Positions 6,884-8,010 of a stretch of DNA of 12,437 bases are shown here, one piece after another. Made by a program: the position numbers and the translations under genes. Where the stretch lies: positions 1 to 12,437 of the forward strand of contig JAIWNU010000100.1 in assembly GCA_020216655.1 (NCBI GenBank). Direction: 5' to 3'. The number at the start of each line of letters is the position of its first letter. Within the stretch, counting starts at the first letter, position 1. The notes beneath the pieces are model-generated. The model ran no database searches, was not told the DNA's origin, and saw nothing but the letters and a program-made list of their open reading frames with translations. The DNA is from Treponema sp. (GTDB lineage: Bacteria > Spirochaetota > Spirochaetia > Treponematales > Breznakiellaceae).

Positions 6884-6965
6884 ATGCCTGGGAATGTGTC
6901 ATTAGGAACCAATAATTTACGAAATTTGAGATGCTGTATCATTTAGACCCACATTTTTGCAAGCC

Positions 6966-7037: not shown

Positions 7038-7078
7038 GATATCTAAAATATATTTTCATCCTTTTAATTTCATCTTGC

Positions 7079-7095
7079 TTGGCATGATATTTGCT
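7079..7095 (+). promoter_or_regulatory. Candidate sigma-54 (-24/-12) promoter of the sigma-factor gene
   Basis: TTGGCATGATATTTGCT fits the sigma-54 consensus TTGGCACG-N4-TTGC(A/T) with one mismatch (T for C after GGCA). GG at 7081-7082 and GC at 7093-7094 have the required spacing. The start is predicted near 7106, giving a leader of about 20 bases that contains the ribosome site GAGGAGG (7113-7119). An overlapping weak sigma-70 alternative exists: TTGCTT at 7075-7080, 18 bases, TATAAG at 7099-7104. Confidence 0.6.
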
Positions 7096-7125
7096 ATATA
7101 TAAGTACCTATTGAGGAGGTACAAC

Positions 7126-8010
7126 ATGACCGCAACCAAAAAAACAGCTCTTTCAAAACAGGCGAAAAAGGAAACCATGAACGATAAAAATGTTCTTTCC
7201 ATATATCTCAAAGAAATAAACAAGATTCCCCTCCTGACCAGGGAAGAGGAAGATGCAATAGCCCGCGCTGCAGCTAAGGGCGACAAGGCTGCCAGGGACA
7301 AGCTTGCCGCTGCCAATCTGCGCTTTGTGGTTAATGTGGCTAAAAAGTATCAGAATCAGGGCCTATCCCTTTCGGATCTTATCAGCGAAGGCAATATTGG
7401 GCTTTTGAATGCCATTGAACGGTACGATGTGGATAAGGGGTATCACTTTATATCCTATGCAGTATGGTGGATAAGGCAGGCAATCCTTAGAGCGATTTGC
7501 GAAAAATCCCGGATGATCCGGCTGCCACTGAATCGGGCCAATGAACTTGTACAGATTGAAAAGGCCCGCAAGGTACTGCAGGGCGGGGCGTCAAGCGATG
7601 CGGAAATTAATGAGGTTGCCCGGCTGCTTGATATGGATCCTTCACATGTGGCGGATCTCATCAATATAAGCCGTGACCTGGTGTCCTTAGAAAGTCCAGT
7701 GTATACCGAAAAAGATTCTTCCATTTTGGGTGATTTTCTGGAAGATACGACCTACAAGGCTCCGGAAGATGCGGCCATCGAGTCTGCATTACGGGAAGAC
7801 ATTGAAACGGTGCTCCAGACCCTTTCAGAAAAGGAAGCGGAAATCATTCGGTACCGCTTTGGTCTTAACGGAACGGCTCCCATGTCTCTCAAAGAAATCG
7901 GGGAAAGGTTTCATCTTACTAAAGAACGGATTCGGCAGATTGAGAAAAAGGCCCTTAAACGGCTCCAGCATCCTGCACGGAAACAGTATCTGGAAAGTTA
8001 TGTAGCATAA
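7126..8010 (+). CDS. Alternative (group-2-like) sigma-70 family RNA polymerase sigma factor
   Basis: A 294-residue sigma factor without the region 1.1 and non-conserved segment of a primary RpoD. Region 1.2 lies at about residues 20-52 (LSIYLKEINKIPLLTREEE). Region 2 is at about 60-130 (NLRFVVNVAKKYQ, DLISEGNIGLLNAIERYD, YAVWWIRQAI). Region 3 is at about 135-210, and region 4 at about 226-282 with its helix-turn-helix in MSLKEIGERFHLTKERIRQI. In region 2.4 the Gln that reads the -10 box is kept (Q118), but the following Thr of RpoD is Leu (L121). The start at 7126 is set by a strong GAGGAGG six bases upstream; the frame stays open to a TTG at 7075, but that lacks support and would include the promoter. 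A terminator follows 24 bases after the stop. It may correspond to the sigma-43 gene TP1012 of T. pallidum (recall, unverified). RpoS-like or rpoD paralogue status is not decided. Confidence 0.9.
   Translation: MTATKKTALSKQAKKETMNDKNVLSIYLKEINKIPLLTREEEDAIARAAAKGDKAARDKLAAANLRFVVNVAKKYQNQGLSLSDLISEGNIGLLNAIERYDVDKGYHFISYAVWWIRQAILRAICEKSRMIRLPLNRANELVQIEKARKVLQGGASSDAEINEVARLLDMDPSHVADLINISRDLVSLESPVYTEKDSSILGDFLEDTTYKAPEDAAIESALREDIETVLQTLSEKEAEIIRYRFGLNGTAPMSLKEIGERFHLTKERIRQIEKKALKRLQHPARKQYLESYVA

Follow-up and report, generated by a model that had tools for sequence, protein, structure and literature searches.

Introduction

At NtrC-type promoters, a -24/-12 element is combined with tandem palindromes 100-250 bp upstream and with a receiver-AAA-HTH activator that carries a GAFTGA motif. 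A related arrangement has been described in Borrelia burgdorferi, in which, according to the cited parts of three papers, an RpoN promoter precedes the sigma-70-family gene rpoS, an Rrp2-type activator acts on it, and an alternative sigma factor is the output (PMC1976401, PMC2940757, PMC11109971). In PMC1976401, Borrelia Rrp2 is reported to activate rpoS with no need of an enhancer, and a 238-bp upstream fragment gave no sign of binding; low-affinity binding is left open there. RpoN control is termed a unique feature of Borrelia rpoS in a passage of PMC2940757, and according to PMC11109971, rpoS alone among B. burgdorferi genes has been found to carry a promoter of the sigma-54 type. In Treponema denticola, Hpk2 and Rrp2 correspond to TDE1970 and TDE1969; Rrp2 is presented as a predicted, unstudied sigma-54 enhancer-binding protein, and the sections consulted in PMC12070737 name no target for it.

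Here, we describe the locus of sigma-A, an alternative sigma factor of a treponeme. It resembles the Borrelia system in all three of the above respects, but the Borrelia rpoS corresponds to another gene, sigma-B, rather than to sigma-A. It also resembles NtrC-type systems in having a -24/-12 element, upstream tandem palindromes, and a receiver-AAA-HTH activator candidate, and differs from them in its target, which is a sigma factor gene, and in the palindrome itself (TGTRTCAWWWTGAYACA, at 40-bp spacing). Searches of an open-access library returned no report that sigma-A is controlled by sigma-54 or has an enhancer, or that sigma-A and sigma-B form separate groups, and none of such a design outside Borrelia.

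Predicted promoter and leader of sigma-A

The window, i.e. the whole stretch of 12,437 nucleotides analysed, is contig C112 of G000, a draft genome of 2.66 Mb. The following features were assigned around the start of sigma-A.

7079..7095, + strand: predicted sigma-54 -24/-12 promoter TTGGCATGATATTTGCT, from motif match and orthologue conservation
7106, + strand: predicted transcription start, 12 bases past the C of GC, placed from the site position
7113..7119, + strand: ribosome-binding site GAGGAGG, a block kept in four genus members
7126..8010, + strand: sigma-A (294 aa), a sigma-70-family member containing regions 1.2, 2, 3, and 4, from Pfam and family trees

The first-pass annotation had noted invariant GG and GC at exact sigma-54 spacing, a single mismatch to the extended consensus, and a GAGGAGG leader ahead of the ATG at 7126, and each of these was confirmed. 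On the + strand, GG occupies 7081-7082 and GC occupies 7093-7094, giving GG-N10-GC at -25/-24 and -13/-12 in a TGGCAY-N5-TTGCW context. TTGGCATGATATTTGCT differs from the consensus TGGCACGNNNNTTGCW at one position, which is C in 55% and T in 45% of the sigma-A family. In sigma-54 promoters, +1 is placed from the C of GC taken as -12. The start codon of sigma-A is 7126-7128. A scan of the window for sites with at most two mismatches to the sigma-54 consensus gave three matches against 1.74 expected; judged from these 12.4 kb alone, TTGGCATGATATTTGCT is not beyond chance.

Pfam domains r1.2, r2, r3, and r4 were detected in sigma-A, placing it in the sigma-70 family, and we take it to be group 2-like. 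It did not reach the curated score thresholds of the RpoS models (TIGR02394, 262.2 vs 378.7 bits; PRK05657, 256.2 vs 394) or of the RpoD models (289.6 vs 555 and 265.7 vs 354). At G000:C45 there is, in addition, a distinct RpoD-like frame (582 aa). RpoN and eight strong AAA+ sigma-54 activators are encoded in the same genome. The best reading of these features is that the window carries a complete predicted promoter that depends on sigma-54 and serves an alternative factor of the sigma-70 family.

Conservation of the sigma-54 site

Relatives of sigma-A were drawn from the genome set and from named records. The 233 loci collected corresponded to 218 distinct proteins after 15 duplicates had been dropped, and 217 were scanned, L198 being without upstream DNA. 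GG and GC were required, nine other positions were scored, and the threshold was set at ≥10/11; this rule was fixed after the first 30 loci had been inspected. Extending the scan from an initial 300 bases to 320 brought in L232. A ≥10/11 site was present at 133/133 of the first loci, duplicates included, and upstream of 192/217 distinct orthologues. Far lower values were obtained with the controls: 2/217 for reversed windows, 19 matches in 1,271,242 background positions (approximately 0.006 per scan), and 0/20 for sequences upstream of rpoD, the best score of which was 9. The match at TTGGCATGATATTTGCT becomes significant because it is conserved upstream of the orthologues, and a chance match is thereby excluded. 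Two of the checks proposed with the first-pass annotation, conservation of GG and GC in orthologues and the presence of RpoN and an enhancer-binding protein in the genome of the window, gave the result that it had anticipated.

Sited loci were found in 110/117 cases in the class of the window or closer, in 66/66 named records, and in 16/34 cases elsewhere in the phylum. Seven loci in the class lack a site of this score. Five of them have TAGCAT instead of TGGCAT at the equivalent position (L186, L187, L217, L218, and L200, the last with one further mismatch); the other two are L274, with a 9/11 match, and L190, an extra sigma-A copy of G034. This genome has three copies (L188, L189, and L190), with a sigma-54 site at two and none at one. 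The TAGCAT loci keep the upstream palindrome described below and offer a natural test of the G at -25. In the presumed T. denticola genomes, this G is A in four of five and the palindrome is kept; T. denticola Rrp2 is expected to belong to the same family as the Rrp2 considered here. The RpoN DNA-binding domain was identified in 16/16 genomes tested, including genomes without sites. In G128, a Borrelia-like genome, the frame of this domain (G128:C1:472400-472828) contains several stops, owing to either decay or an assembly problem, and the sigma-54 site of rpoS is kept.

The aligned sites read TTGGCAYR..TTGC(A/T). We considered whether an ordinary sigma-70 promoter, TTGCTT (7075-7080)-N18-TATAAG (7099-7104), drives the gene, the sigma-54 motif being a chance or secondary feature. 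Both hexamers are indeed present, and the DNA past GC is A/T-rich in the orthologues. However, TTGCTT shares just 3/6 bases with TTGACA, and neither -35 nor TATAAT-like columns were observed over the sited orthologues, in which the sigma-54 columns stand out. The scan itself demanded GG and GC, but the unscored flanking positions also fit the sigma-54 consensus: -27 is T in 82%, and -20 is G in 73% or A in 24% (together 97%). A sigma-70 promoter in this role is therefore extremely improbable, and it was rejected, as the orthologues share a general A/T-richness past GC and not the hexamers.

Tandem palindromes upstream of the promoter

Alignment of four genus members indicated a second conserved block near -145, from which the palindrome motif TGTRTC-N5-GAYACA originated. 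A dyad search returned mostly A/T runs; GTATC-N5-GATAC occurred in 9/191 loci, the best dyad of shuffled sequences reaching 3-6, and was pursued on the strength of the genus alignment. The R and Y letters were added after the first version of the motif. Three matches of ≥10/12 were found in the 12.4-kb window, and two of them form a tandem pair that was absent from the list of features in the first-pass annotation.

6895..6911, no strand assigned: distal enhancer-like palindrome TGTGTCATTAGGAACCA (10/12), beginning 40 bp ahead of the proximal copy
6935..6951, no strand assigned: proximal enhancer-like palindrome TGTATCATTTAGACCCA (11/12), from motif match

A palindrome of ≥10/12 was observed at 139/191 sited sigma-A loci against 6.2 in shuffles, in contrast to the enhancer-free rpoS described in the cited part of PMC1976401, and a 12/12 palindrome was observed at 28 of the 191 against none in shuffles; the remaining 52 loci have no palindrome of ≥10/12. 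It was also present in 6/6 loci with near-miss sigma-54 sites, in 2/19 sigma-A loci without the site (Fisher p 1.3e-7), and in 0/20 sequences upstream of rpoD. A partner palindrome lay 39-42 bp away in 93/140 loci, with a mode of 40 bp; the stretch used for this count was slightly wider than that used for the enrichment, giving 140 rather than 139 palindrome loci. Thus, tandem palindromes occur upstream at a fixed spacing, as at NtrC-type promoters, and the pair in the window has the same 40-bp spacing.

The enrichment at sigma-A is partly circular, because the sigma-A loci themselves served to discover and sharpen the motif. Independent tests were therefore sought in genome-wide scans and in genomes with a single activator. 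A genome-wide scan of G000, G001, G003, and G036 with the stricter palindrome (≤1 mismatch) carried little information: the pattern was not above control in G003 (one place against two) or G036 (one against three), and its two places in G000 are both away from sigma-A. In G044, the T. pallidum-like genome, the sigma-A site is perfect and the palindrome is absent. With the first version of the motif, ≥10/12 was reached in just 2/18 loci labelled sigma-B and in 0/4 Borrelia-like rpoS loci.

Rrp2 as the candidate activator

Rrp2 consists of a receiver, a sigma-54 activator AAA+ domain with GAFTGA, and HTH_8, a Fis-type DNA-binding domain. By best BLAST hits, an orthologue was identified in each of the seven genomes of the first comparison (G000, G001, G036, G044, G291, and two Borrelia-like genomes) and in all nine further genomes of 1.5-2.2 Mb. 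Since G000 has eight strong activators, Rrp2 was assigned there by orthology, on best BLAST hits and no tree. In G000 and G001, the gene preceding rrp2 is kinase-like by motif. The gene in the same kinase-like position in G044 (L461:4638-5941) is split over two overlapping reading frames.

Exactly one activator at E ≤ 1e-30 was detected in each of G197, G284, G310, and G321, and in all four it was the Rrp2 orthologue, with 58-64% identity to that of G000. The sigma-A palindromes of these genomes scored 12, 11, 11, and 11 of 12, respectively. Strict palindromes were found genome-wide at 2 places in G197, 8 in G284, 2 in G310, and 1 in G321, against 0, 1, 0, and 0 for the reversed pattern, and in every one of the four genomes these places included sigma-A. 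The strict palindrome also led to sigma-54-sited hsp20 genes in G197, G284, and G310, identified by Pfam HSP20 for G310 and by resemblance for the other two. Upstream palindromes were likewise present at both sigma-54-sited hsp20 genes of G001 and at the Hsp20-like gene of G000. Four further near-perfect palindromes of G284 (C3, C4, C23, and C51) are located away from sigma-A and hsp20.

These results suggested that Rrp2 reads the sigma-A palindromes, a prediction drawn from the single-activator genomes. It is also conceivable that the promoter is sigma-54-dependent and that a different activator recognises the palindromes, such as one of the GAF-domain type (L035, L355, or L352). The eight strong activators of G000 leave room for such a protein, and the T. 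pallidum-like genome has Rrp2, yet has neither the palindrome nor activators of the L352 or L358 type. On the other hand, four genomes retain the palindrome with Rrp2 as the sole activator detected, Rrp2 keeps its DNA-binding domain, and rrp2 is linked to sigma-A at a distance of approximately 3-7 kb in four f13 genomes. We thus regard another activator as unlikely and Rrp2 as the preferred candidate. No palindrome of ≥12/14 was found beside activator genes in the 28 loci scanned.

Proposed circuit

Here, we propose a circuit in which the kinase and Rrp2 act through the tandem enhancer on the RpoN promoter to produce sigma-A, together with Hsp20. What was directly observed comprises the conserved sites with their tandem spacing, RpoN, and the Rrp2 orthologues, including those of the sole-activator genomes, and the circuit is, in our judgement, highly probable. 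A response regulator of the Borrelia Rrp2 type, encoded just downstream of the kinase-like gene, would bind both palindromes, which sit 40 bp apart and precede the -24/-12 element by approximately 145 and 185 bp. Bound Rrp2 would then loop to the RpoN-RNA polymerase waiting at TTGGCATGATATTTGCT and open it, so that transcription would begin near 7106 and yield sigma-A. The latter would redirect polymerase to its gene set, and hsp20 would be turned on directly through an enhancer of this type. The predicted part of this mechanism comprises the binding and looping steps, the start point, the signal, and the targets of sigma-A. With the palindrome, Rrp2 gains a specific candidate site to bind, none having been found at Borrelia rpoS in PMC1976401, and free-living relatives are indicated as safe systems for studying an Rrp2-RpoN-sigma circuit.

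Sigma-B and Borrelia rpoS

A second sigma-70-family gene of G000, termed sigma-B (G000:C136:4439-5309; L050, L277), is preceded by an exact sigma-54 site. Such a site was found at 17/18 sigma-B-type loci, the sole exception grouping elsewhere in the tree, and at 4/4 Borrelia-like rpoS loci. Two tree rows were set aside: L336, on a long branch, and L285, which had been labelled B and groups with the second sigma factor of presumed Brachyspira genomes. In the sigma search, just RpoD and RpoS were found in the four Borrelia-like genomes; sigma-A and RpoD, together with a third, weak match, were found in G044, a single contig of 1,139,633 bases whose T. pallidum-like identity is presumed.

The first-pass annotation had likened the locus to the RpoN-RpoS cascade of Borrelia, which raises the reading that sigma-A is the treponeme version of rpoS and that the circuit was inherited gene for gene. 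The logic of the two circuits is the same, Rrp2 orthologues exist on both sides, and a topology uniting Borrelia RpoS with sigma-A withstood the AU test taken alone (p 0.147). However, Borrelia-like RpoS grouped with sigma-B with an ultrafast bootstrap of 100 and an SH-aLRT of 99. The order sigma-B/rpoS, PF04748 deacetylase, tsaD is shared by G001 and a Borrelia-like genome (Pfam-checked except for tsaD of G001), and the same order was observed by reading frames in G291 and G052. The sigma-A of the T. pallidum-like genome instead shares alaS, ppiC, nusB, a TPR gene, and groES with the neighbourhood in the window. Since the AU test is not decisive, gene order decides, and Borrelia rpoS is the positional orthologue of sigma-B. 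Judged by clade and neighbours together, the orthologue of Borrelia rpoS is sigma-B of G000 and not sigma-A. The cascade logic of the first-pass annotation therefore stands, and its gene-for-gene identity with Borrelia rpoS, which we hold to be very improbable, was rejected on the tree plus gene order.

A sigma-54 promoter before sigma-A, usually with enhancer-like sites, was found in most spirochaete relatives examined and looks ancestral. As the same logic applies to two different sigma genes over much of the phylum, an ancestral origin is more likely than an invention of the Lyme-disease lineage. We lean towards a model in which the kinase, Rrp2, the tandem enhancer, and RpoN formed an ancestral stress or growth-phase switch of Spirochaetia for sigma-A and Hsp20, with a mostly enhancer-free sigma-B alongside, and in which the parasites kept one arm each. 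If so, Borrelia would have kept sigma-B as rpoS, without sigma-A, and the T. pallidum line would have kept sigma-A, without sigma-B and with the palindrome gone. Borrelia Rrp2 would then have a DNA-binding domain and no known site at rpoS because its enhancer target left with sigma-A.

The sigma-A site of G044 is TGGCATGATATTTGCT, and the sigma gene of this genome gains a predicted upstream regulator. In the proteome table of PMC5015957, TP1012 is listed as an RNA polymerase sigma factor, and we infer that it is equivalent to the G044-type sigma-A. A search for TP1012 in the open-access literature returned just a proteome paper.

Other sigma-54-sited genes

In G001, 24 exact sigma-54 sites were found against 1 in the control, and approximately 11 were promoter-placed on reading. 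G044 had 6 against 5, hardly above the control; 2/6 were promoter-placed on reading, upstream of sigma-A and of a ferritin-family (Dps-like) gene. Ferritin-family (Dps-like) genes of G001 (L398) and G044 (L397/L419) have exact sites 40-54 bases upstream. Within 350 bases scanned, no palindrome of ≥9 was found at Dps or sigma-B of G001, or, in G000, at sigma-B or the glutamine-synthetase-like gene. A single palindrome, scoring 10, lies at -73 of the G001 peroxiredoxin promoter, and for five other G001 promoters the palindrome scan covered approximately 150-170 upstream bases. Contig C123 of G000 (L046-L048) carries three exact sigma-54 sites, two of which precede lipoprotein-like or secreted-protein-like genes.
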